This document shows, in pieces, positions 4 through 38,173 of a stretch of 64,000 nt of DNA. Each line of letters opens with the position of its first letter. Position 1 is the stretch's first letter. The notes beneath the pieces were generated by a model, which saw only the letters and a program-made list of their open reading frames with translations, had not been told where the DNA came from and did not search any database. The translations under genes and the position numbers were made by a program. The stretch comes from Corallium rubrum (lineage: Eukaryota; Cnidaria; Anthozoa; Scleralcyonacea; Coralliidae), in contig OZ035997.1 of the NCBI GenBank assembly GCA_964035015.1, forward strand, positions 29,383,567 through 29,447,566, read 5' to 3'.

Positions 4-1971
4 TTGGTTAAGACATTTGGAAATGACTCTCCGAAATTGATGACTTGTGATCGGGTTCAAGTGTCCATTACAGCCACAGATGGGTTGGAGCTGTATGTCA
101 ATGCCTTCAGCACTCCAGTTATTTGCAGCCCTGTTAGTAACCAAGCTGTGGAGGTAGCTGTGGAAAAGTATCCATACTTACAAGATTTGGTATTAGCAGA
201 CGAGATTAATTCATCACATGATGTGGATATTGACATCCTTATCGGAGCAAATTTTTACTGGAACTTTGTCTCCAATGAGTCTAGAAGGGGAGAGCAATCT
301 GGTCCAGTGGCCCTACTGACAAGGCTGGGATGGGTTTTGTCAGGACCCGTCAGTGGCAGCTGTGATGAGTCACACTGTACGACCAACCTCAATGCAACCC
401 ATGTCTTACGAATTGATGCTACACCGGTCCAACATGAGCTAAACACGAAGATGAACGAGCAACTTAAGAAGTTCTGGGATTTGGAAACGGTTGGTATCCG
501 CAGCCATGAGAGTTCCGTTTACGATAAGTTTGTTGAAGATATTCATTTTGACGGAGAAAGGTATGAAGCAAAACTACCGTTTAAGGAACATCATTCGTTG
601 CTACCAGATAATTACGCAGGCAGTGTAAAGAGATTGGGATCACTGATTCATCACCTCCAGAACCAACCAAGTCTTTTACATGAATATGACAAGATTATTC
701 AAGACCAGATCCAGAAGGGTATTGTGGAACCAGTCAATCCTGAAGCAAGAGTGAAACCTGGAAATGTTCACTACCTTCCCCACAGAGAAGTGGTAAGAAC
801 TGACAAGGACACCACGAAAGTAAGAGTAGTGTATGATGCATCGGCCAAAACTACAGGACCCAGCCTGAATGATTGTTTGTATGCTGGCCCATCTCTAACG
901 CCTTTGATTTTTGATATTTTGCTTCGATTTCGAGTGCATCGAGTAGCCATGGTAGCTGATATAGAGAAGGCTTTCCTGAACATTTCCATAGCCCAAGAGC
1001 ATCGTGATCTCCTGAGGTTTCTGTGGGTGGACGACCCAAATAGCACGAGTCCAACAGTTCAGCCATTAAGATTCACACGAGTCGTCTTCGGTGTTACCTC
1101 GAGTCCATTCATCCTTAATGCTACTCTGCGTTATCACATGAATCGATATTTGGCAGAAGATCCAGAATTCGTCCAGGAAGTGTTGAGGTCGCTTTATGTC
1201 GACGATTACGCGTCAGGTTCTACGAGTGTATCGAGTGCCCTGGAATTGGCCAGAAAAATAAAACACCGACTGTCTTGTGGAGGTTTCAACATGCGAAAAT
1301 GGCAAACCAACTCCGAGAGTCTTCAGCAAGTATTTCAAGAAGGCCAAGAATTTGCTGAATGTTCTTCAAGCCCAGAATTAGTATCGTCAGTTAAGGAAGA
1401 AGATCGCGGTTATACAAAGTCCGTTCTTGGTGACCATCATGAAGCCAAAAACAAGGTACATGTACTTGGTCAAACATGGGACACTTGTAACGACAAATTT
1501 GAAATCAACGTGTCTAAGGTCGCAGCTGACCATAATCCGAATGTTTGTACCAAACGAACAGTACTGAGTCTCTCCGCAAAGTTTTACGACCCATTGGGTC
1601 TGATATCTCCCATAGTCCTCCAGTTGAAGCTTCTATTCCAAGAACTGTGTGGAAACAACGTCGCATGGGATGATCAATTGAGCGAGAATTTCTGTCTTCG
1701 ATGGAATTCGATCATCTCCTGTTTGAAGAAAACAGATATAATCTCAGTGGACCGATGTTACTTCGCCAAAGAATCAACTGGTCAAGTCCAGCTGCATGCT
1801 TTTGCTGATGCAAGTGAGACCTCCTATGGTGCCTGTGTATACTTGCGTTACGAACACGAAGCTGGGGTCCACTGCAATTTAGTTGCTTCCAAGACAAGAG
1901 TAGCTCCGACAAATAAAGTCCATACCACGCCTCGAATTGCTATCTTGTTTGGTTTCAGTGCGACTCGTTGA
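4..1971 (+). CDS. pol: Bel/Pao pol, first half: protease, reverse transcriptase, start of RNase H
   Basis: This open frame enters from the left edge, so no true start is visible. Residues about 75-87 contain DILIGANFYW, typical of the Pao-family aspartic peptidase region. The reverse transcriptase follows at about 265-470: VRVVYDASAKT near 273, an aspartate in MVADIEKAF near 319, and the catalytic pair in YVDDY at about 400-401. LSAKFYDPLGLISP near 525 is characteristic of the Pao A17 region. RNase H begins with AFADAS near 602. The frame runs out after the sequence slips at about 1937-1950: the expected R-L-E-L-L run is broken and coding continues in the next frame at 1937. The enzyme copies element RNA into DNA in cytoplasmic particles. 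The frameshift could be a mutation or an assembly error. Confidence 0.9.
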   Translation: MVKTFGNDSPKLMTCDRVQVSITATDGLELYVNAFSTPVICSPVSNQAVEVAVEKYPYLQDLVLADEINSSHDVDIDILIGANFYWNFVSNESRRGEQSGPVALLTRLGWVLSGPVSGSCDESHCTTNLNATHVLRIDATPVQHELNTKMNEQLKKFWDLETVGIRSHESSVYDKFVEDIHFDGERYEAKLPFKEHHSLLPDNYAGSVKRLGSLIHHLQNQPSLLHEYDKIIQDQIQKGIVEPVNPEARVKPGNVHYLPHREVVRTDKDTTKVRVVYDASAKTTGPSLNDCLYAGPSLTPLIFDILLRFRVHRVAMVADIEKAFLNISIAQEHRDLLRFLWVDDPNSTSPTVQPLRFTRVVFGVTSSPFILNATLRYHMNRYLAEDPEFVQEVLRSLYVDDYASGSTSVSSALELARKIKHRLSCGGFNMRKWQTNSESLQQVFQEGQEFAECSSSPELVSSVKEEDRGYTKSVLGDHHEAKNKVHVLGQTWDTCNDKFEINVSKVAADHNPNVCTKRTVLSLSAKFYDPLGLISPIVLQLKLLFQELCGNNVAWDDQLSENFCLRWNSIISCLKKTDIISVDRCYFAKESTGQVQLHAFADASETSYGACVYLRYEHEAGVHCNLVASKTRVAPTNKVHTTPRIAILFGFSATR

Positions 1972-3898
1972 AAGTATAAGGAAAGCACTTCAAGATGTTA
2001 TGAAGATCGACACCATTGTCTTCTGGTCTGACTCCACTGTTGCCATCCACTGGATACGAAGTGTGCACAAGGAATACAAGCAGTTTGTGGAGAATAGAGT
2101 GCAAGAAATCCGTAGATTGTCAGACCCAGAGTGCTGGAGATATTGCCCAACAAAGGAGAATCCAGCCAACACTGCTTCGAGAGGAGAAACGGCGAAGAAG
2201 CTCGTAGCAAATTACAAGTGGTGGCATGGACCAAAGTTTTTGGAAAAACATAAAGAGTCCTGGCCTGAACAGCCATTTAGCGAAGCAAATGACAGCCCTG
2301 ATACACTACGAGAGTTGAAAGCAAGCGAGCAGAAGGTAACCGTAGCTGTGGTAGGTGCTGAAGTAGAACAGACTCACAACCTCCAGAAACTGTTGAACCT
2401 ATCGAAATACAGCAAGATTGAAACCTTGTTAAGAGTAACAGCCTACATTCAAAGATTTATTACTAATCTAAAGCGACGCTTGAGGGGATTGGATATGATC
2501 AAGGGTCCACTTACCGCGGAGGAACTTGATGCAGCAGAGAAATCCTGGATAAAGCAAGTACAAGCTGCATTGCCAAGATTGCCAAAGTACCAGAAGATGA
2601 AACAATCTCTACGTTTATTTGAAGATGATGAACAAATAATACGCTGCCGTGGACGCATTGAGAGATCTAGCCTTCCTCAAGAAACAAAGTTCCCCATATT
2701 GCTTTCGAGTGAACATGCATTTACCAAGCTCGTGGTTCTTCGCTGTCATCGAGAAGTCATGCACGACGGAGTGGGAGAAACCTTAACTCAATTAAGGTCA
2801 AGATTTTGGATCGTCAAAGGTAGACAAGTGGTCAAAAAGATCGTATATCGGTGTACCACTTGCAGAAGATGGGAAGGAAAGTCTTACGGAGTACCACCTG
2901 CGCCGCCTTTGCCAGAATACCGTTTGGATAACACTGCCGCATTCACCAGAGTGGGAGTCGACTACGCCGGCCCCTTGTTTGTAAGAAATATTTACCCTAG
3001 TGATGAAAACATGCACAAAACGTACATTGTTCTCTACACATGTGCCTCCAGTCGTGCTGTTCATTTGGATCTAGTTCCCGATGCGACAAGCGAAGCATTC
3101 ATCCGTAATTTCAAACGATTCATCAGTCGCAGAGGAGTCCCAGCTACGATGATTTCAGATAACGGCAAGACCTTCAAGGCCAAAGAGGTGAAAGAATTCA
3201 CCGCATCTAAGAGGATCAAATGGGTACACATTGTAGCACGTTCTCCATGGTGGGGAGGATTCTATGAACGACTAGTTCGGTCAGTCAAGAGATGTCTAAA
3301 AAAGGTACTACGTACAGCCAAATTAACCTATGAGGAACTGCTGACGTTGCTTATACAAGTAGAAGGTGTGATGAATTCCCGTCCTCTCACCTATGTTTAT
3401 GAAGACAACGAACCGTTAACCCCGTCGCATTTGGTTTTAGGACGGCGAGTACTGTCTCAAGCCCAGGAAGTTGACGTAAACGAGACCGATCAAGCCGAGA
3501 GTTCTGAGAAAGCCACGCGGCGACAAAAGCATCTAAAAACCGTCCTACTACAATTTTGGAGAAGGTGGCAACAAGAATATCTTACCCAATTACGTGAGTA
3601 TCACCGTCCGAAGAAAGCGTTGGGACCACCAGTAAACATAGGTGACGTTGTGACGATCCGAGAAGATAACATAAAACGGCTGAATTGGAACATTGGACGA
3701 GATGAAAAACTGCTGACGGGACGAGACGGAAATACTCGAGCAGTCGTATTGCGTACAATTAGCAAGGACGGAAGACCGAAAGAGATGAAACGACCGATAC
3801 AGAGATTGTACCCAGTAGAGCTCCAATCTGATCGGAATAAGAACATCCAAATTCCGATAACTTTTGTCGAACACGCTAATCAAGAAAACCGATTATAG
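1937..3898 (+). CDS. pol: Bel/Pao pol, second half: RNase H and integrase
   Basis: This frame continues the pol protein after the frameshift. The first methionine is fortuitous. RNase H motif FWSDSTVAIHW lies near residue 31. Integrase occupies about 260-500, with an HHCC zinc-binding motif (CHREVMHDG and CTTCRRW) followed by the catalytic triad: D342 in VDYAGPL, D408 in SDNGKTF and E444 in FYERLV. The last two are separated by 35 residues, as expected for a DDE retrotransposon integrase. The C-terminal stretch with LGPPVNIGDVV and RPIQRLYPVEL is the conserved tail of Pao polyproteins. The stop sits 46 bases before the LTR, as expected for the 3' end of pol. Confidence 0.9.
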   Translation: MLSCLVSVRLVESIRKALQDVMKIDTIVFWSDSTVAIHWIRSVHKEYKQFVENRVQEIRRLSDPECWRYCPTKENPANTASRGETAKKLVANYKWWHGPKFLEKHKESWPEQPFSEANDSPDTLRELKASEQKVTVAVVGAEVEQTHNLQKLLNLSKYSKIETLLRVTAYIQRFITNLKRRLRGLDMIKGPLTAEELDAAEKSWIKQVQAALPRLPKYQKMKQSLRLFEDDEQIIRCRGRIERSSLPQETKFPILLSSEHAFTKLVVLRCHREVMHDGVGETLTQLRSRFWIVKGRQVVKKIVYRCTTCRRWEGKSYGVPPAPPLPEYRLDNTAAFTRVGVDYAGPLFVRNIYPSDENMHKTYIVLYTCASSRAVHLDLVPDATSEAFIRNFKRFISRRGVPATMISDNGKTFKAKEVKEFTASKRIKWVHIVARSPWWGGFYERLVRSVKRCLKKVLRTAKLTYEELLTLLIQVEGVMNSRPLTYVYEDNEPLTPSHLVLGRRVLSQAQEVDVNETDQAESSEKATRRQKHLKTVLLQFWRRWQQEYLTQLREYHRPKKALGPPVNIGDVVTIREDNIKRLNWNIGRDEKLLTGRDGNTRAVVLRTISKDGRPKEMKRPIQRLYPVELQSDRNKNIQIPITFVEHANQENRL

Positions 3899-5992: not shown

Positions 5993-5998
5993 TTTATT
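5993..5998 (-). promoter_or_regulatory. Possible polyadenylation signal of the Ig-receptor gene
   Basis: On the minus strand AATAAA occurs 100 bases after the in-frame stop of the tentative last exon. The spacing is sensible, but the hexamer is common in AT-rich DNA. Confidence 0.3.
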
Positions 5999-6097
5999 AT
6001 AAATTCATCAATTGGAGTAATGCCTGTGTCAGGCATTTGCAAACTTTTTATGCCTTGGAGTGGGGCATTTATCCACAGTACTTTTAAAAATGTTTAC

Positions 6098-6133
6098 CTA
6101 GGGCATTGCTGTTGTGTTGGGCATTTGCCAAAG
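6098..6133 (-). CDS. Tentative last exon of the Ig receptor (short cytoplasmic tail)
   Basis: A good acceptor (pyrimidine run ending TTTTTTCAG) precedes a phase-0 reading of 11 residues (LWQMPNTTAMP) and a TAG stop. The phase matches the end of the membrane exon at 6693. The surrounding sequence contains loosely repeated GGGCATTTG words, so this may be chance. The true cytoplasmic exons may instead lie left of the window, beyond the Bel/Pao insertion. Confidence 0.25.
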   Translation of the reverse strand, partial: LWQMPNTTAMP

Positions 6134-6692
6134 CTGAAAAAATCCTGGTTGCCTTAATAGTCACATACTTGCTGTGGTATAATAAGCCAATTAAACAGCA
6201 ATACAAATGGGTTGTCAAAATATTGTGTTTTGTGCAAAAAGACAATATAATTTATACTGGTATGCTACAATGGGAGGTTCGGGACTCCCATATATTGACT
6301 ATACAGGGATGTGCCAATGGAAAGGGAATGGTTTTCATTTTTGCCATTTTTAGTTTGGAACAGGGTACTGGTGTAATAATTATCACACTTTTGATCTGGT
6401 GCAAGGTCTGTTCTTATATGCTGGCAGTTATTTAGGCTAGCACAAGGTACCCTATGTTTTCCTTTCTTTCAGTTTGGAACTGTGTACCATTTTTAGCCAT
6501 TTTTTGTGAAACAGGGTAAAAAAATATACAATTCCTTTGTCTGGAGTGACCAACATAATTTAAGGATTCAGTGGTATTAATACACCCCTGGGATTGAAGG
6601 CAGAGGTTATTAATAATAATAAACAATGAACATGAGGGGTTTGCATTAATGTATTTCTAGTAAATATAAATAACTAATATATTTGTACTTAC
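6134..6692. other. Unassigned intron-like sequence
   Basis: This is AT-rich sequence between the tentative tail exon and the membrane exon. Two diverged copies of a roughly 40-base word (ACCCTGTTxCA...AAAATGGC on the minus strand) are seen near 6340-6370 and 6475-6520. Nothing else is recognised. Confidence 0.4.
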
Positions 6693-6799
6693 AGAAAAAC
6701 AAACAATAATCGTTCCCACGAATAAAAACACACCAGTAAATATAAAAATAATCTTCCACCATTTAATTTTGTATGACTTGTAGTTGTATGGCGAGTGTT
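6693..6799 (-). CDS. Transmembrane exon of the predicted Ig receptor
   Basis: The exon is 107 bp, phase 1 at its start and phase 0 at its end. The acceptor reads ...TTAACGTTGCAG and the donor is a near-perfect GTAAGTAC. The peptide begins HSPYNYKSYKIKWWK and continues into about 21 hydrophobic residues (IIFIFTGVFLFVGTIIVCF), a clear single membrane-spanning helix. The KIKWWK cluster lies on the N-terminal, presumably outer, side, which is slightly unusual. The first codon is completed by a G from the previous exon to give Glu, as at both preceding joins. Confidence 0.65.
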
Positions 6800-6929
6800 C
6801 TGCAACGTTAATAATGTCAGGAAAAAAAAGAGAATAAGTTTGATTTGAAACACGGTATTGAATGGTGAAGTGTGCGTGAATGGGATTGTGAACGATCACG
6901 ATTTAATAGCTCCAATTCATCGCCAATAA

Positions 6930-7628
6930 GGGACCGTTCATTATTTATCGGAGGGGGGGGGGGGGGGATGGGTGAGAAATTGCCAAACTTTCTTTTTTTT
7001 AAGGTACCCCCAAGCAAAGTTCAAAAATTTGGTAGCCCCCTGTTTTTATTTGATATAATTTCAGTAACCCCCCCCCCCAACCCTTCAAATCCTGACATTA
7101 ATATTAAAACTAACACCACCCACCCTTCCTATAAAACCTCAAAATTCAACCCCATTAACCCTAAACCTAACCTTAACCCTAAATATAACCTTCTTAACCC
7201 CAACCTTAATTCCCACCTGACCCACACATTAAACCAATTAATTGTCACCTTAACCTTCTCCTTAATCTCAATCATAATCATTACCCTAACACCTTAAACC
7301 TCAAATTATAAACCATTCTTCACTACTATTTACCAACACAATACACCAAGGATGGTAAGTCACAACCAGGATCTAAATACCTGAGCCTTATGGTTTACTT
7401 TTACATTTATTTTACATTTTACAAAACAACACAAAATAATTCCAATTAAAAGCTTTTCTGAATGATTTTTCCCAATAAGAAATGTTTGTAAAACAAAAAC
7501 TTCATGCCCCCCTTTAAGAACTTATAAATTATTTCAGGGTCCCCCCAAAAGTAGTGGCAAAAATATCAGGTCCCCCCATTTTCTCACCCATCCCCCCCCC
7601 CCCCTTCCGATAAATAATGAACGGTCCC
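6930..7628. mobile_element. Short inverted-repeat element with 3-bp TAA target duplication
   Basis: Both ends carry the inverted repeat GGGACCGTTCATTATTTATC followed by long G (left) or C (right) runs, and the element is flanked by TAA at 6927-6929 and 7629-7631. A 3-base TAA duplication is typical of PIF/Harbinger-type transposons. The interior (about 7110-7290) is C-rich with many CCCTAA/CCTTAA words. No transposase frame is seen, so it is non-autonomous. It lies in the intron before the membrane exon. Confidence 0.75.
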
Positions 7629-7631
7629 TAA

Positions 7632-8475
7632 GAATTATCAAACAAGGTATAGAACCATGCAGTGGAACGTTTGACTAAAAAAACACACATGATGAAACCA
7701 AGGCAGCTTTTGTATGTCAGTGCAGTCTTTTCTCAATTTCAGATATCCAAATTTTTGGCGTTAAACTTAAACGTCAAATGCATGGGCCTTTTACTGTATG
7801 TACCATGTATTAATCGGCTCTTCAGTGCATGTAAAGCGTACCAGTACTATTATTATATAAGCGTAAGATAAAAATTGCAAACACCCCATGTGATGGTTAT
7901 CGTTTTAGTCCCGTTTATGGAAAAGTTGACCGTAGACCGTGATGCCACACTTAGAATTAGGGCTGGAGTTAGGTTTATCACCTTTCCCGCTGACCTCATA
8001 TACTGAGGTAATATTCTGCATTCTACAAATTACCCGCATATCGCAAATTTTCCGTGGCTGCAAACGGAGCCTCTAGCCAATCAAAACACTTCTCTTGGTG
8101 ATGGATTATCCCAGAGTCATGGTTTGCGCGCCGACGAAGGTTCTGGGAACGAGATTGTACTGGCGTCAGCACATGCGTCCAGAAATAGATTATATAGCCA
8201 GCGGCATTTTCTTAAAGCTTAGCATGGGAAAAGGTCTCAGACTACCAATGGTTAAAAGCACTAAGGGCAATCGTACATACGAAATCAAATGCAGGAGTTT
8301 ATTTTTCATATAAAAAAATTTTCTAAAACCTCTCACGATCTTGATTGGCAGTACTTCACTTTTAATATCAAAACCCCAAGTCTAATTGTTAATTATTAAC
8401 CGACGGATGACTGGACTAGACTATGGGCACTAATTAGTTGGAATGATACGTTGAATATACCGTATATATCACTTT
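7632..8475. other. Intron-like sequence, nothing recognised
   Basis: I see no exon with paired splice sites and no repeat end in this stretch. It includes a slightly GC-richer part near 8090-8240. Confidence 0.4.
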
Positions 8476-8844
8476 CTGTTTAGACTAGGTGCCCGGGTAT
8501 AGTGCCCAGGCACGGGAACTAATGTGAACACGACTTTTTCGCGGTTCCCAACTCAAACTAATCAAAACTGGACACCGTGCGTTGGTACCTGCCTACCCGG
8601 GTACCGGTTACCGTTACCGTTACATAACGGTTACGGGCACTAATGTGAACACGTTTTCATAGTGCCCAAAGTGGTGCCCACGCCTTTTGCTAAATATTCC
8701 TTGTAATTCGAAGGCTTAAAGCCACAAAATAGCTACAAAAGCCATGAAAAACTTCCTGTGTGAACACATATCAGATCCAGGGCACCGTGAATGTGAACAA
8801 GTGGCCCGTGCCCAAGCACCGTACCGGGTACCTAGCTCAAACAG
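8476..8844. mobile_element. Short inverted-repeat element (CTGTTT...CTAGGT ends)
   Basis: The left end CTGTTTAGACTAGGTGCCCGG is mirrored at the right by CCGGGTACCTAGCTCAAACAG. Inside, the word GGCACTAATGTGAACACG or close variants recurs. The length is about 370 bp. No coding sequence and no clear target duplication were found. Confidence 0.6.
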
Positions 8845-9085
8845 AGGGTTAAACGATTCAAATTCATTGGCGGCGGAAGATTTTATATATTGGACGGGCT
8901 AATTCGCTAAATACAATATTAGGGGGTGTACGTTGACCTTCTACCATTATATTTTAGGCAATTTTTGGTATTATCTTCAGAAATATTGCCACCTTTGCCC
9001 TCCCTGTTTCGCCGCCCTTATTCAAATTAAATGCCTGCTCAAAAGCAACTTCATAGTATTGATTTAGCCACTTACTGGTATATAC

Positions 9086-9157
9086 CTTTAATGGCTTTAT
9101 CTTTCTTTCTTGTCAGTTGTATCGTCGGCTTATCCGATGATGATTTTGAAATATTCT
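9086..9157 (-). CDS. Linker mini-exon A of the predicted Ig receptor
   Basis: This 72-bp phase 1-1 exon has acceptor CTTTTAAAACAG and donor GTATAT. It encodes ENISKSSSDKPTIQLTRKK and five more residues, a Ser/Lys-rich spacer with one N-glycosylation motif (NIS). It is a diverged duplicate of the exon at 9747-9821: the acceptor flank and the start ENISK are shared. It lies between the Ig exon and the membrane exon, where a stalk is expected. Confidence 0.55.
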
Positions 9158-9746
9158 CTGTTTTAAAAGAGTGAGACTTAAAAATTAAATAATTGTAAAC
9201 AGAATTGAATTTCATTGTTTTCCTGCTCTTGTGGCAATCATATAGATACAGAAAGTGACAATCCACTCCATAGGAAAAAAAGATGGCGTCATCTACTTTG
9301 TTCTCACTAGCTTGTTTGTACAATGACGCTTAGGCCTGCGCTTTATACGCGAGTTGCACGATCATGCGCATGCATAATTTTGGCGGGCCACTGGCATACA
9401 TTTGGCGGGCCACAGGCATAATTTTGGCGGGCTTAAGTGAAAGGCATTCAACAATTTTCTGAAGATATTAGCATCAGGAATTATTTCTATCTTTAAAAAT
9501 AGTTAAATTTCATTTAGTATTGGCCACGTTTTAATGCATGTGACCCGCCAAAATGATGCGCGCGCAACATCGTGCAACGTGCCTATATGTCCTAGATAAA
9601 ACCATGCACGCATAAATGTCGGCAGGGCCGCACATAGCGAAGAAGACAGCAGAAGCAACTTCCCTCCAGAGAAAATCAAAAATATGTTTATTTAATCTGA
9701 ATGTCTCCGAACTCAGAAGCAATTTTGTCAGTATTGATTTATTTAC
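9158..9746. other. Intron between duplicated mini-exons
   Basis: Sequence upstream of mini-exon A (to about 9290) is repeated upstream of mini-exon B, where it is split by an insertion. Around 9375-9440 and 9540-9560 the word TTTTGGCGGGCC or its complement recurs, suggesting a degraded short element. Confidence 0.45.
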
Positions 9747-9821
9747 CTTTTATGGATTTACTGGATTTCTTTGTTGTCAGTAGCATCATTGCCGTAGTCG
9801 GTGGTAATTTGGAAATATTTT
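9747..9821 (-). CDS. Linker mini-exon B of the predicted Ig receptor
   Basis: This 75-bp phase 1-1 exon has acceptor CTTTTAAAACAG and donor GTAAAT. It encodes ENISKLPPTTAMMLLTTKKS and five more residues, Thr/Lys-rich with an NIS glycosylation motif. Its acceptor and first residues match mini-exon A about 660 bases downstream, evidence of a tandem exon duplication that kept splice sites and phase. Retention of phase argues that both are real exons. Confidence 0.55.
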
Positions 9822-9849
9822 CTGTTTTAAAAGAGTGAGATATATGTAT

Positions 9850-10958
9850 AGGTTATTTTGAGGCCACGAGGGGATATGCCCGAGGGGCCTCAAAATTACG
9901 TACTTATTTTTCACTTGGCGAGGTTAACAGGATTTCATAAGATAAGGAGTGGTGCGGGGGATATTAGACAGGAAGATTAGAGGAGAATATTATAGTGAGG
10001 AATGGTAGAGGGGAATATTAGAGTCTTAGAGGGGAATATTAATCTATTGTTTTGCCAGGGGCTATTGAATATATTCCCCTAAAACAACAAAGGAAACTGA
10101 GGCATGTGAAAAATAAAAAATTATAAACAGAATTAAACTCCATTGTTTCCCCACCTTAGCAGCAAAAGATGACGCGGCCTTGTACTACCATAACCCTTTG
10201 CGTGCAGCCAGAAACTGAAGGATGAAAGAAGTCTTACAGATTAAACTGTAGTCCATTAACTCTTTCACTCTACCGCGAGGCTCTCCACTTGACAAGTAAA
10301 ATCGTCTGGCGTTAGACGGGTAAAATACTCTGGCGTTAAACAGAGTCTGCTTTGTTCGAAAACGAACGATACGGTGGGAAAACAGTTAAATTTATTTTGA
10401 CCGGTCAAACAATATTATTTTAACTCTTACCAGAACTAGCTTTATGATAGAAAGTACATGCAACCGCTTTTTTGCTACGGTTAAATTTCTAAATTCAGTT
10501 TATAGCAAAGCAAATGCGCACTGCGAATTGCAAATACCAGCTATAGCCTACGATTCACGCACCAAAAAATCAAATTTTCGGTAGAAAGTCAGAGTTAAAA
10601 CAGGCGGCGCAAAAAATAAGGCAAAACGTGAGGACTGATTATTCTTCCCATGGCTCGACGTTTCCTTTCAAACTAAAAATCTCGAAGGTTGGGAACTTTA
10701 AAGTTTTTTATTTATTAATTCACTTAAAATCACTTCAACTACATATCTTATGTGCTAACGTTGCCGTAGGAAGCACATAACTATAAATTTCCAACCTATA
10801 GCTCTTCGTGCATGTGTGCGCGGTCATTAGAATTAACATTGCAAGTAGTTTGATCTCTGTCTGGACGGGTTCAGCAATATTTTCGCCAAGTATTCGAGCT
10901 CGATCAACGTCTGCAAAAAATCTGTTACACTGCACCAAGCTCGCTTGAATGTATTGCA
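9850..10958. other. Intronic insertion and unassigned sequence
   Basis: The block 9850-10100 interrupts the duplicated intron sequence and carries repeated GGGGAATATTAGA words near 9980-10040, so it is probably an inserted repeat. After it the duplicated sequence resumes (ATAAACAGAATTAAACTCC). From 10200 to 10958 nothing is recognised. Confidence 0.45.
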
Positions 10959-11290
10959 ATATGTGTAGGTGTAGGTGTAGTGTGTAGTGTGTAGTGTGTA
11001 GTGTGTAGTGTGTAGTGTGTAGTGTGTAGTGTGTAGGTGTAGTGTGTAGGTGTAGTGTGTAGGTGTAGGTGTAGGTGTAGTGTGTAGTGTGTAAGTGTAG
11101 TGTGTAGTGTATAGTGTGTAGGTGTAGTGTGTAGTGTGTAGTGTGTAGTGTGTAGGTGTAGTGTGTAGGTGTAGGTGTAGTGTGTAGCGTGTAGCGTGTA
11201 GGTGTACGTGTAGGTGTAGGTGTAGTGTGTAGGTGTAGTGTGTAGTGTGTAGCGTGTAGCGTGTAGTGTGTAGTGTGTAGGTGTAGGTGG
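10959..11290. repeat. GTGTAG / TGTAGTG minisatellite
   Basis: About 330 bp of tandem copies mix a 6-base unit (GTGTAG) with a 7-base unit (GTGTAGT), with a few GTGTAGC and GTGTAAG variants. Confidence 0.95.
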
Positions 11291-11346
11291 TTAGCAGACG
11301 TTATTGGTGGACGTTCGTCAAGCTCAATTACTCAGAAAAGATTTCT

Positions 11347-11425
11347 GAGCCCCAAACAGGGTTCGAATCTGCAACCTTCTAATGACCGGTTAGACGCTCT
11401 AACCATTATTGAGCCACTGAGGCTC
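11347..11425 (-). pseudogene. tRNA-like sequence, probably SINE-derived
   Basis: On the minus strand GAGCCTC at the start pairs fully with GGGGCTC at the end (one G-T pair) as an acceptor stem. In between are a D-arm-like TGGCTCAATAATGGTTAGAGC, a stem TCTAA/TTAGA with a 7-base loop, and a T-arm-like ATTCGAACCC. The loop lacks the invariant T before the anticodon position and the T stem is imperfect, so a working tRNA is unlikely. Confidence 0.55.
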
Positions 11426-11992
11426 TGATGGAGAGCTAAGATTGCAAATTCATAGTCATATGTGCTCCGAAGTCGTAGCGTTTGCATATGAGAATGTAGT
11501 TAAAGTGATATGATAAGCCAACAGACCTTTGTCTCACCGCTAGAATGTATTAAGCAAGGATTAAAGTGAGTTCGTTAAGATTGTCACGGGCTTTATAGCC
11601 AGCATATTGCTGTTTGAAAATGATCGAAGAGTTAGAAAAGATGCGGGAACTGAACGAAGTTTTAAATCGAATCAAACACGGCTCTCTGTTGCTGGTGTTC
11701 GTTTTTGCTTTATTTATACCTTTCTGTGAGGCTTCGAATGTCTTATTAATGATCAGTGTTTTCTCTTTATACGAATTCTTAAGTGGTTATCAAATGTAGT
11801 CAAGATGCCAAAAGTATTGCTGATTATAATTGCAAAAAATCGGAAAAATTATAGAACACGTTTCTTGGCGCCTCCTTTTCCACCCGCGAGCCTTCTTTTC
11901 CACCCGCGAGCGTCTGTGACGCCGGCTACATGTAAAACAGTGAAGAAATTAACCCAATTTTCACATGTGATATAGCCACAAAAATCTCATGC
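11426..11992. other. Intron-like sequence
   Basis: A 61-codon plus-strand frame at 11614-11799 (MKMIEELEKMRELNEV then a hydrophobic run) has no recognised homolog or splice context and I do not call it a gene. Two adjacent copies of a roughly 18-base CCTTTTCCACCCGCGAG word lie at 11870-11905. Confidence 0.35.
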
Positions 11993-12178
11993 AATAGACC
12001 TTATTCAAAAATGGCCGCCGAATTAAAATTCTTTATATACATATAAATTAGCCCTTATGAACTCGTTTTCATGTGTGAAATGCAAAAGAATTTTCACTTG
12101 AAAACGAGGTCATAAGAGCTAATTTATATCCACAGAAAAGAATTCTAATTCAGCGGCCATTTTTGAATAAGGTCTATT
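11993..12178. mobile_element. Foldback short element, family 'AATAGACCTTATTC'
   Basis: The ends AATAGACCTTATTCAAAAAT and their reverse complement frame a palindrome with arms of about 85 bp. A second member lies at 29426-29621 with the same ends, showing a dispersed family. It is non-coding. Confidence 0.85.
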
Positions 12179-12432
12179 ACACGCGTTGCCATTGTGTATA
12201 AATAAACGAATAATTTTAAATTCCAATGTGTTTTTACTGTGGGCGGTGGTGGTGGTGAGCGGAGGTAGGATCTTGGTACGAGGTTGCTTTCCACACTAGC
12301 TAGGCTGAGATTTTTCAGTCGGCCTTGGACTAAACCGAGACTAAATACTCTCCATGTAACTATACATAGTTCCCATAAATTATATAAAAAAATATTAAAT
12401 TAGCGGCATTATATATAGCAAAAGTGATTTAC

Positions 12433-12750
12433 CAGACAAAACTTCAAGAGAAACGTTGAAAATTAGAATCGATCCATCCCACGCCTTTAAAGCAACAGTA
12501 AAATCCCCAGTTTCTTTCTGGCTCACATTAAATAAATTTAATGCAGCCAGTCCAGTAATCCGTATAATTTGCTTGAAAGGAGCTCTAATCCAGATATTCG
12601 GTGGACTCTTGTAGGCTATAATTTTACGGTTAAAATAAACTATAATCCCTGCATGTGGCATACTGCTGGTGTTTGCGTACACCCAGCTCAAAGTAACATT
12701 GTCGCCAGTGTTTGCCAGGATTTTTGACGGTGGTCTCTTAGTGAGAACAA
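12433..12750 (-). CDS. Ig-like domain exon without cysteines
   Basis: The exon is 318 bp, phase 1-1, the usual form of an exon holding a single Ig domain. The acceptor has a long pyrimidine tract ending CTTAACAG and the donor is GTAAATC. The peptide shows an Ig V/I-set pattern: GDNVTLSWVYAN in strand B, a mid-domain IIVYFNRKII, then TGLAALNLFNVSQKETGDFT, the usual L-x-I-x-x-V-x-x-x-D-x-G-x-Y region with F for Y, and a final strand FNVSLEVL. No cysteine is present, so the B-F disulfide is absent. Four N-glycosylation motifs are present (NVT, NTS, NVS twice), fitting an extracellular location. Cysteine-poor Ig domains are known from cnidarian receptors. Confidence 0.75.
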
Positions 12751-13664
12751 CTGTTAAGACAAAAAAAAACAAAAACAATAAACAACAAACAACAAACAAA
12801 TAAATAACGAATAAATTAAGTCTGCGACAATACATGTTAATTAATGTGTATAATTGATATGCGGTGAAACATTCATCTTATAAAATGCAGTTCGAAATAA
12901 ACTGTAGTGAAACACAATTAAAATACTCATTAGAATAATTTTGTCGGGCATTGGGGTGTATTTTCGGGCTAAAATGGAGAATTCAGCTAATCAGTTTTAA
13001 CAGTTCTAAATCACTATTGGTTTGTTGTTTACGGAATTGTATACTTTTCTTGTCAATACTTTGGAGCAAAGATCGTTTTGATGACAAATATTGCGTTTTT
13101 CTGTCAAGTTATATGTAAGTTTTAACCCTCACCTTCACCTTCAGCTCTAGCTAAAATGAGCCTGAGTCGGGCCAAAAACATATCTATGCCCACGTTGTTA
13201 TATTAATAATTCGTGACAAAAAGACAAAAGAAATGAGTCTTAATTATTAATGTCTGTAAATCGGATACAAAATTTCAGCTCGCTTTGTACTACCAATACC
13301 AAGCCAACGCAAAGGAATGTAATCACGTGAGAGAAGTAAACAAAGTCGTTTTGATCGTTGAGAAGATCTCACAAGTAAACGCCTTATATGTACAGGATGT
13401 ACATATGTCGTGGACTTCGCAAGGTAGTGTTCGCGTCCTTTAGATGTAACGTGGAATGTTGCCATAATAAAGAACTAAAGAACCACATGAAATAAAGTTG
13501 CCGTAAATACTGCATTTTTCACTCACGTCACGTGATATAATTCCTTTGCATTAGGTTTGTTACGACGTGTCGTTATTTTGGGCTCAACGAGCATTCTACT
13601 GATTTTGGTAGTAAATCTCATACGGCCACTCATACTGTATCTAGTATATTAACTTAAAGGGGCT
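12751..13664. other. Intron sequence, nothing recognised
   Basis: This is AT-rich sequence between the Ig exon and a nested transposon block. I see no paired splice sites or repeat ends. Confidence 0.4.
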
Positions 13665-14199
13665 GTTTACATGAGCCGGGCTAGCCCGGCTAACCGGGCT
13701 GACTCGTGTCGCGAAACTCTTTCCTCAGGATTCGTTTACATCTAAACTGAACCAATACATCTTTGTAAATTTAGTTTATACAAGTCTCAAACCACTGTGA
13801 GGTCCTACCAGGGACGTAGCCAGGATTTTGAAAGGGGGGAGCAGAAATCAAAATAAAATTTTAGGGGGTCCGGGGGCATGCTCCCCCGGGAAATTTTGAA
13901 ATCGAGAGTCGCAGAAATGCCATTTCCTGGCTTTGGAGGAAGATTTTACAGATTCTAAAGGTTAAAAAACGTCATATAAAATACTCAAAACAAGCAAACG
14001 TCACATAGATACTCAAAATGCATACACTCAGTAGATTGAATACACTGTTTACAGTTTATTTCCTGACACAATTCATATTGCAACAGTTTTGAAGTTCATG
14101 TCTGTTGTTTTATATCAAAAGGGGGGGAGCCGGCTACGTCCCTGGATCCTACTCAAATCCGTGAGCCCAGTTAACCGGGCTAGCCTGGCTCATGTAAAC
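13665..14199. mobile_element. Short inverted-repeat element (GTTTACATGAGCC ends) carrying a nested hAT-like element
   Basis: The left end GTTTACATGAGCCGGGCTAG is mirrored by CTAGCCTGGCTCATGTAAAC at the right. Related GGGCTAGCCC-rich sequences occur at 18470-18570 and around 42010-43040. Nearly two thirds of this copy is a second element at 13809-14144. Confidence 0.7.
13809..14144. mobile_element. hAT-like non-autonomous element, copy 1
   Basis: Ends CAGGGACGTAGCC / GGCTACGTCCCTG are flanked by an 8-bp duplication, GGTCCTAC left and GATCCTAC right (one mismatch). CAGGG ends and 8-base duplications are typical of hAT transposons. Copy 2 at 59877-60238 is closely similar along its length. It is non-coding. 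Confidence 0.85.
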
Positions 14200-14221
14200 A
14201 TGTACAATATATACTATTCAC

Positions 14222-14382
14222 TTAATTAGCTGGATTTCCTGACTAGGCGTAAAATATTGGGAGCTCGACTTTTTTCTTTTGTCTTGCGAGTTTCCATGTG
14301 GAACGAAGTAGAAAACTATTCAATTTGTACAATAGAAAAGTCGAGCGCGCGACATTTCACGCCTAGAGGAAACCCAGCTTAA
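14222..14382. mobile_element. Short inverted-repeat element, family TTAAGCTGGNTTTCC
   Basis: It is bounded by TTAA on both sides, with ends AGCTGGATTTCC and GGAAACCCAGCT. The interior contains the GTCGAGCGCGCGAC-like core shared with members at 29761-29915, 39887-40042 and 62074-62257. TTAA targets suggest mobilisation by a piggyBac-type transposase. Confidence 0.7.
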
Positions 14383-14770
14383 GGCCCCAGTTACACGATA
14401 CCGTGGGAAAACCACACGGCCTAATAGAATATATTTGCTTCTTGCCAAGCATGACTTCGAGCAGTCGTCCATCGTGTCTATTTTTTGATTCTATTGTTTA
14501 GAAATTATAAATATGGACCAAACTTTTCATATTTTGCTTTCACATTGTTCTAGTTTTGTCGTTTAGATGTGAAAAAGACTTTTCAGTTATTAATTAAAAA
14601 AAACAAAAAAAAACGTGTTTTCGTCACACGCGAGAAACACCCGATTTTTGTGTTCACTTACCTTATAAGGTCACGTGGCACACTAAGCTAACGCGACTTT
14701 TGGACCGATAGCGATGACGTCACAGTTACGAAATCGAACCGATGTTTTGGCGACCATTTACAAATTGGGC

Positions 14771-14813
<43 letters not shown>

Positions 14814-15357
14814 GCTAATAATGGCTTTATACAGTAAATAGTCTAATTAATATAAATGCCCCAAAAATTAAAAAACAAAAAATGTATATTAAGTTTAAGT
14901 TTTTAGTCTCTCGTTTGCAATGCGAGCAAAGTGTTCTTCGACTGTACGTTTAAAATCACTAAAATAACGACAGTTTCTTATCTCTACAGGCAAACTATTT
15001 TGGAGTTCTTTTGCACTTGTTTTTTTCACTGATTAGTGATGCGATTATTCGTATAAACGTTAACAAAAACATAGAACAAAGAGTTTGGCTGCATTTCCAG
15101 ACACTTCAATTCTAGTGACTGCTACTGATGTATATGTAGTGCTAACTTAGCACTGCTAAAGTGCTTATCGCCGAGCTTAAGCTTTATCTAGTTCCGTGTT
15201 TCTCAAATACGTCAGTGGGCACATACACACAATGTGTGTCTATTTTTTTATTGTAGATTGCCAATCCGGTATAGTGTAACCAGAGCAGAAACGGCATGGT
15301 TTTCATATAGGATTCCGTGGCAAAAAACAATCCAGCATCGTGTAACTAGGGCCTTAA
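14379..15357. mobile_element. TTAA-flanked inverted-repeat element, about 0.98 kb
   Basis: The ends TTAAGGCCCCAGTTACACGA and TCGTGTAACTAGGGCCTTAA are inverted repeats bounded by TTAA, which it shares with the preceding element. Inside are an (AAT)n microsatellite (14769-14812) and AT-rich sequence with no long frame. Confidence 0.75.
14769..14812. repeat. (AAT)n microsatellite
   Basis: About fourteen tandem AAT/ATA triplets are visible directly. Confidence 0.95.
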
Positions 15358-15395
15358 TAGGTTAATTGGTGTAGAATTTAATGTCAATTATTAAC

Positions 15396-15676
15396 ATGGA
15401 CAATTTGCATTATAGCAATGCATCATGGGAAAAATGGTAGCGCTTCATTTGCAGGCGAAATGGCCGCCACGAAGCGAGCATTTTGCTTGTGAGAAGAATC
15501 GATTCTTTTAAGCACATTTTTTGTAGTGCAGGAGAATTTCGAAAAATGTGCTTAGAAAGTGCGCTTAAAAAGAATCCATTCTCACAAGCAAAATGCTCGC
15601 TTCGTGGCGGCCATTTCGCCTGCAAGTGAAGCGCTGCCATTTTCCCATTATCCATTCTATAATGCAAATTGTCCAT
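15396..15676. mobile_element. Foldback short element
   Basis: Arms of about 125 bp are inverted copies, starting ATGGACAATTTGCATTATA and including GGCGAAATGGCCGCCACGAA. The centre is near 15530. It is non-coding; the minus frame across it is a by-product of the palindrome. Confidence 0.9.
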
Positions 15677-16172
15677 TGTTGTAGTTAAAGATTCTGCCAG
15701 AATTTGTGAACAAATTTAACACTGACTGTAATGTCTTCTTATACGTGTAAACATGCAATAGCAGTAACAGTTTAATAGAAACTTACTGCATGTTGTCCAT
15801 GTGGTGGCATTAGAAGAGTTCTTTAAATATTGTTGCAATAGACCATTTGCACGATGACGTTAGGTGACTAACTAAAACTACCAGAATGCTTTGCCAGTAT
15901 TTAGGCCAGGGTTTCGGCTAAAAGGGTGACTCAAAAGGACCCGTTCTTTCGCGGCTTTTCTAAAATGCGTCGTCAAAAATGTTTTTCCAAAAAGCTAGGG
16001 GGTAAACCAGATTTCTGATTATGGTTAGGATTTTTGTTTTGGTTAGGGGGAAAGATTGCTAAAATCTTGAGTATCGCTGAAACTTGACGACAAATTTGAA
16101 AAAAAAAAAAACCCACAAATTTGACGATATATTTTGGGAAAGCCGCGAAATTCTGATTTTTATTTTTCTTAC
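15677..16172. other. Intron 1 sequence of the Ig-receptor gene
   Basis: This is AT-rich sequence just downstream of the signal-peptide exon. I see no other exon. An A-run lies at 16098-16112. Confidence 0.4.
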
Positions 16173-16233
16173 CTTTGCCTTCGAGCAAAGTTAAACTGAA
16201 CAAAGTGATTACTGTGCTTATTAGAGTATTCAT
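16173..16233 (-). CDS. Signal-peptide exon of the predicted Ig receptor
   Basis: The ATG at 16231-16233 opens MNTLISTVITLFSLTLLEGK. It has a hydrophobic core of about 14 residues with a small polar start, a good secretion signal. The exon ends AAAG and a GTAAGAA donor in phase 1, exactly the phase needed to join the Ig exon at 12750 (the shared codon becomes Val). No other ATG-led signal sequence with a matching donor was found nearby. The 5' untranslated region and promoter were not identified; the next upstream sequence is AT-rich. Confidence 0.6.
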
Positions 16234-37886: not shown

Positions 37887-38173
37887 GATCCTTTTTTGTC
37901 CAGCGTGGCTATACCGTGCACCCACCTGTTAGACACTGCTATTAACAAAGCATCTATAGTATATTCCTCGTCCTGACACTTTAAAACAACCTTTAGAAAG
38001 AGTTTCTGATACTAAAATACCATTAGTTCTTACATTTCATCCTTTCAACTACAAATAAGGATATCATTAGCCACAATTTCCACATCCTAAAGAATGATCC
38101 TGAAACGTCAGCTATTTTCACTGACAACCCTTTAATCTCTTTTCGGCGTAATAAAAATATTCGTGATGGTTTA

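Follow-up and report, generated by a model that had tools for sequence, protein, structure and literature searches.

Our analysis of a 64-kb window of Corallium rubrum DNA (assembly GCA_964035015.1, contig OZ035997.1, positions 29,383,567 to 29,447,566; coordinates given below without a contig name are those of the window, the whole stretch that was analysed) points to a receptor gene on the minus strand, referred to here as the window gene, whose five short exons would join into a membrane protein with a single, cysteine-free immunoglobulin (Ig) domain of the V-set type. We consider the window gene rather likely to be genuine and single-copy, encoding an octocoral type I receptor that is disulfide-free, has a single V-set domain and is involved in adhesion or recognition. 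The window gene also appears to be a lone distant relative of a large V-set family that is organized in tandem arrays in the same genome. The assembly searched comprises 474 Mb in 312 contigs, and the window was placed in the contig designated C1. All five exons proposed in an earlier sequence-only reading, with their GT-AG sites and compatible phases, were found at the positions it had given:

Exon 1, 16173..16233, minus strand: ATG and leader (MNTLISTVITLFSLTLLEGK), ending in phase 1, with a GTAAG donor.
Exon 2, 12433..12750, minus strand: V-set Ig domain with no cysteine, with a CAG acceptor and a GTAAA donor.
Exon 3, 9747..9821, minus strand: stalk (ENISKLPPTTAMMLLTTKKSSKSIK), with a CAG acceptor and a GTAAA donor.
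Exon 4, 9086..9157, minus strand: stalk, a tandem duplicate of exon 3 (ENISKSSSDKPTIQLTRKKDKAIK), with a CAG acceptor and a GTATA donor.
Exon 5, 6693..6799, minus strand: juxtamembrane segment and transmembrane helix, with a CAG acceptor, a phase 0 end and a GTAAGT donor.

All four exon junctions are in phase 1, and no exon exceeds 318 bases, the length of exon 2, just as the sequence-only reading had stated. The splicing of this five-exon chain, which we infer from splice sites and phases, would give a product of 211 residues with six N-glycosylation sequons. Its sole cysteine is residue 209, within the membrane exon, and the translation of exon 2 has none, which bears out the claim that the Ig domain is free of cysteines. 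Both linker exons that had been proposed (9821-9747 and 9157-9086) are present and fit in phase. Alignment reveals them to be tandem duplicates: the matched stretch shows 78% identity, a gap of 3 bases keeps the frame, and the acceptor regions are identical. Most of their differences, as read by eye from the alignment, change the amino acid, as expected for a loosely constrained stalk. The proposed order of signal, Ig domain, stalk and membrane segment, with an unusual Ig domain, agrees with the exon order and with the predicted V-set fold. By a scripted list of open segments of 270-369 bases with phase 1-1 boundaries on the minus strand of the window, exon 2 is the only one outside the 47-52 kb region, which holds retroelement-like open reading frames (ORFs). 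Near the window gene, a search of 264 kb (the window plus 200 kb of left flank) revealed no I-set exon; its sole match, at E 0.38 with an I-set query, lies 172 kb to the left. Because of this, the product is taken, as far as seen, as a one-Ig receptor.

Structure prediction and sequence comparison both bear on the nature of exon 2. An AlphaFold model built from exon 2 aligned with 14 relatives from the same genome forms a complete V-set sandwich (pLDDT 87.6) with predicted strands A A' B C C' C'' D E F G, so that the Ig sandwich looked for in the earlier proposal is predicted, in a model built with Ig relatives. In structure comparison the model matches the V domains of CRIg, TIGIT, PD-L1 and nectin. 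The V domains of nectin, CAR, TIGIT and CRIg have the canonical disulfide, and their identity to exon 2 is low (10-17%). In exon 2 the canonical cysteine places are occupied by W23 in strand B and V86 in strand F, with Y25 two residues past W23, and the place of the D-x-G-x-Y-x-C motif reads E80-T81-G82-D83-F84-T85-V86, a degenerate form. A 26-row profile of relatives ranks exon 2 first among 5768 sequences (767 ORFs, one of them exon 2's own, and 5000 shuffles), scoring 15.3 bits, where the best shuffle reaches 13.8. Three alignments (A1, A2 and A4) have the C strand in the wrong place and do not enter the conclusions, and A5, used for the first fold, partly had the same fault; A3 looked better, and a PDB profile built from it gives matches that reflect the whole family. 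On the strength of the model, exon 2 is called here a predicted cysteine-free variant of the V-set domain. Passages of one paper cite CD2 as an exception to the disulfide between strands B and F (PMC12051499), suggesting that loss of the disulfide does not rule out function and that the claim of a V-set fold stands. A literature search found no paper on CEACAM1 V domains without a disulfide.

If the chain is right, the protein would be a type I membrane protein with a leader, one disulfide-free V-set domain, a stalk, one membrane helix and a cytoplasmic tail. The stalk would be short, flexible and rich in Lys, Ser and Thr, built from the duplicated exon. The V domain would be held together without the B-F disulfide by a packed core, with Trp23 and Tyr25 replacing the cysteine environment, while its front face (strands G, F, C and C') would be displayed at the cell surface and may bind a surface protein of a neighbouring cell. 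The binding mode is proposed by analogy with V domains of the nectin, CAR and CD2 type, and the role would be cell-cell adhesion or recognition.

The second line of evidence comes from the rest of the genome, where all search counts given here are lower bounds. The Pfam V-set model finds at least 152 matches, strong and weak, many of them near one another. A search with L030, a relative without cysteines chosen as apparently the most similar to exon 2, gives at least 56 matches, and a composite query at least 82 at E up to 10, 49 of these below 0.001. Arrays of V-set exons lie on contigs C224, C62, C156, C292, C302, C69, C256 and others; on C1 the closest V-set match among those listed is 2.3 Mb from exon 2. 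The 26-row profile was compiled from 20 rows of the L030 search and six of 20 fetched V-set exons; by eye, 10 of these 20 are without both canonical cysteines, and six of the 10 were put into the profile. Both canonical cysteines are absent in 26 of 26 rows, which describes that family and not all V-set exons, because the rows came by way of a cysteine-less query. The B-strand cysteine place is Trp in 20 rows, Tyr stands two residues past this place in 25, and the F-strand place is Leu, Phe, Val or Ile in all 26; four rows have one cysteine at another position. Exon 2 carries the same signature, W-x-Y in strand B with both canonical cysteines missing. Two of four array V domains tested fall below the Pfam V-set cut-off and two above it, and the signature is usable to find receptors that Pfam can miss.

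The resemblance between the window gene and the array family has clear limits. In both, a V-set exon is followed by a donor in apparently the same phase, as judged by eye, and in both the canonical cysteines are gone; exon 2 and most of the family have Trp at the B-strand place and Tyr two positions later. However, exon 2 shares only 11-23% identity with the 14 relatives in alignment A6, it is without the C-strand Trp/Phe, and one genome copy of it was found. Two array relatives (C224:951-969 kb and C302:43.5-59.3 kb) also have a cysteine-bearing I-set exon about 5 and about 11 kb downstream of the V exon, in contrast to the window gene, near which none was found. The one array I-set exon tested is clearly Ig by Pfam, and in these relatives the V exon and the downstream I-set exon would belong to one gene. 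Three further observations concern these V-set exons and their contigs. The V-set exon L032 (C1:95566320-95566780) has Trp at the B-strand cysteine place and keeps the F-strand cysteine; it is possibly an intermediate in disulfide loss. On C224, equal-scoring V-set exon pairs 92.7 kb and 95.7 kb apart, at 1.31-1.41 Mb and 1.75-1.86 Mb, suggest large segmental duplications or unmerged haplotypes within the array. The same contig is listed at exactly 1,980,000 bases.

The sequence-only reading had also suggested a search for clustered paralogs, and the outcome was mixed: V-set relatives are clustered elsewhere in the genome, but none was found beside the window gene. A protein search of the whole genome with exon 2 returned only exon 2 itself (one candidate scored), and tblastn, regular-expression and family-domain searches of the 264 kb found no clustered paralogs, all these searches being of limited reach at such divergence. 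The first regular expression missed exon 2 itself and was loosened before its use on the 264 kb. The search of this region with array V domains has little reach, because it leaves exon 2 unmatched at E up to 0.5. One two-piece match 31.7 kb to the left was rejected because its pieces lie in two different frames, both interrupted by stops in this region.

At the two ends of the chain, the evidence differs. Both strands of the 264 kb, or 528 kb of strand, were scanned for membrane exons (phase-1 entry, a CAG/TAG-type acceptor with a pyrimidine tract, a GTRAG donor and a 19-residue hydropathy of at least 2.2), and exon 5 is the only segment that qualifies. A stricter pyrimidine-tract threshold missed exon 5 and the cut-off was relaxed to admit it, so that its uniqueness is a description and not a blind test. 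Leader-like exons number 17 in the same 528 kb of strand, exon 1 counted among them. With a hydropathy of 2.45, exon 1 is the most hydrophobic within 25 kb upstream of exon 2; a rival leader at 38085 is higher (2.73) but lies 25 kb from exon 2, and another at 13181 is lower (1.72). A further candidate makes exon 1 unnecessary:

Alternative 5' end, 12751..12835, minus strand: exon 2 is extended in frame to an ATG at 12835, giving a hydrophobic leader.

This leader reads through the pyrimidine tract. The proposal that exon 1 encodes the signal peptide thus holds as to its place and its course from ATG to donor, but other leaders also fit. As judged from these scans, exon 1 is the best nearby leader candidate, one of several possible and not a certainty.

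Beyond the membrane exon the locus runs into a repeat:

Interspersed repeat, 5993..6661, strand not assigned: reaches 5993 or further left and ends on the right near 6661.

Scoring 40 of 1071 candidates gave at least 40 other copies of it, with 91-99% identity, and the right edge adjoins the stop codon that is reached by reading through the exon 5 donor. The end of the gene had been set at 5993, and this needs correction, as the position falls inside the repeat. Because the exon 5 donor, GTAAGT, is intact, a tail exon further left is likely. For the cytoplasmic tail, 11 candidate phase-0 exons carry tyrosine motifs, none of them supported, the first lying inside the repeat. Other elements were noted in the window. 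Retroelement-like ORFs, recognized by eye, include an integrase-like one at 1904-3898 (plus strand) and several reverse-transcriptase/GIY-like fragments at 36-38, 46-49 and 51-55 kb. Intron 1 contains a palindrome at 15428-15646 resembling a miniature inverted-repeat transposable element, with a 68-base inverted repeat, 96% complementary, and an 83-base spacer, and a second inverted repeat lies at 11990-12181. A tRNA-like match (11348-11423, minus strand, 44.6 bits), possibly a tRNA-derived element, lies in the intron between exons 2 and 3 and adjoins about 330 bases of GTGTA-type tandem repeat.

Several results weigh against the receptor interpretation and are considered together here. No Pfam Ig family is found in the product at E up to 10, and the cut-off of PF07686 is not reached. 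The best phmmer match among PDB sequences is a CD48/CD2 chimera at E 0.21; CD2 and CD48 are vertebrate proteins with two-domain ectodomains, unlike the window gene product with its one Ig domain. The C-strand Trp is absent in exon 2, where the profile alignment places V38. The alignment given to AlphaFold consists of Ig relatives, and such input may favour an Ig fold. An earlier profile of 10 rows separated exon 2 from the best shuffle by a margin of 11.8 to 11.2 bits. Exon 2 is absent among the matches listed for the V-set, L030 and composite genome searches. Similar scans of two array relatives detected neither a leader within 1.9 kb upstream nor a downstream membrane exon, and since these came up empty, the layout of the window gene is without precedent in those relatives. 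The exon 1 leader is not unique, having competitors at 38085, 13181 and ATG 12835, and no convincing tail exon is found among the 11 phase-0 candidates. The function, finally, is proposed from a predicted fold.

These points can be read in several ways. The window gene may be an old member of the array family that is decaying or silent, stranded among transposable elements. Mobile and repeated sequences do abound at the locus, a repeat adjoins the membrane exon, no tail exon was found, and the differences between exons 3 and 4 lie mostly at amino-acid-changing sites. However, all proposed exons are open with intact splice sites and fitting phases, and the exon 3/4 duplicate has preserved its frame and acceptor despite divergence, so that we regard decay as unlikely. 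Alternatively, the Ig exon may be real and the chain wrong, with another leader or other downstream exons and a product that is perhaps secreted or of another architecture. The additional leaders at ATG 12835, 13181 and further upstream would allow this, as would the I-set exons downstream of the V exon in two array relatives. Against it, no second membrane exon of this kind turned up on either strand of the 264 kb, the one present is in the right phase, and the phases of exons 3 and 4 agree as well; we consider a wrong chain unlikely. That exon 2 is a chance open segment merely resembling an Ig domain would accord with the missing Pfam match and with a best shuffle within 1.5 bits of exon 2 in the profile test, yet we hold it to be very improbable. 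Overall, the window gene is probably a real, functional and unusual receptor gene.

A more specific proposal was that the gene belongs to the Alr-type allorecognition receptors of Hydractinia, and it deserves separate consideration. Huene and colleagues are said to have described Alr proteins in 2022 as single-pass cnidarian IgSF receptors whose V-set and I-set domains are unusual. Alr ectodomains are composed of tandem V-set and I-set domains, and several members have an ITAM/ITIM-type tail. The window gene is likewise cnidarian, with a predicted single-pass layout and an unusual V-set domain without the usual motifs, but where Alr proteins have a tandem ectodomain, it has one Ig exon between the leader and membrane exons. 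According to passages of the respective papers, Alr genes are IgSF genes of low sequence identity (PMC11067881), and some putative members are located outside the complex (PMC11876637, PMC13119343), both of which would leave room for a divergent member. Passages of two papers also describe Alr genes as mostly clustered (PMC11876637, PMC11067881), whereas no neighbour of the window gene was found in 264 kb. With one Ig domain, no paralog in that region and exon 2 alone in the genome search, membership of the Alr family is not supported, and a strictly Alr-type receptor, meaning a polymorphic self-marker that binds homophilically and is related to Hydractinia Alr1/Alr2, is decidedly improbable. 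No Alr-labelled entry is among the matches listed in the similarity and structure comparisons, which excludes nothing. The window gene resembles Alr in kind and is not filed as Alr.

The cnidarian source that the Alr proposal had presupposed is supported: the genome is judged to be that of an octocoral by the mitochondrial MutS (mtMutS) and COX1 on contig C129, and one GFP-family match fits a cnidarian. To our knowledge, mtMutS is unique to octocorals among animals. C129 carries COX1 and MutS_V, the latter in open frames of up to 1009 amino acids. On this contig of 97,394 bases, several copies of COX1 and MutS, be they whole, partial or broken, occur in both orientations, and one COX1 copy reads 533 amino acids under the standard code. 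Same-strand COX1 and MutS copies are about 18.9 kb apart, which fits a concatemer of an animal mitogenome, and C129 is probably a noisy one. A dinoflagellate origin, considered for the repeated COX1, was dropped when MutS was found on C129 too.

What such a receptor may mean for octocorals can be outlined with caution. We know of no octocoral recognition genes. Cysteine-free V-set arrays in octocorals are unreported in the literature searched, which comprised titles and abstract openings with subscription journals mostly outside, and passages of coral and cnidarian papers make no mention of them. The main value of the window gene is as a pointer to octocoral V-set gene arrays without the canonical disulfide. 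We speculate that these arrays, an expanded family of disulfide-free V-set receptors with Trp for the B-strand cysteine, grouped into large clusters much as the Hydractinia complex is, form an octocoral self-recognition system, with the window gene as a diverged single-V-set partner or founder, a possibility that we rate as rather doubtful. If true, cysteine-free V domains would be central to recognition in an anthozoan lineage whose separation from Hydractinia goes back to the base of the Cnidaria.

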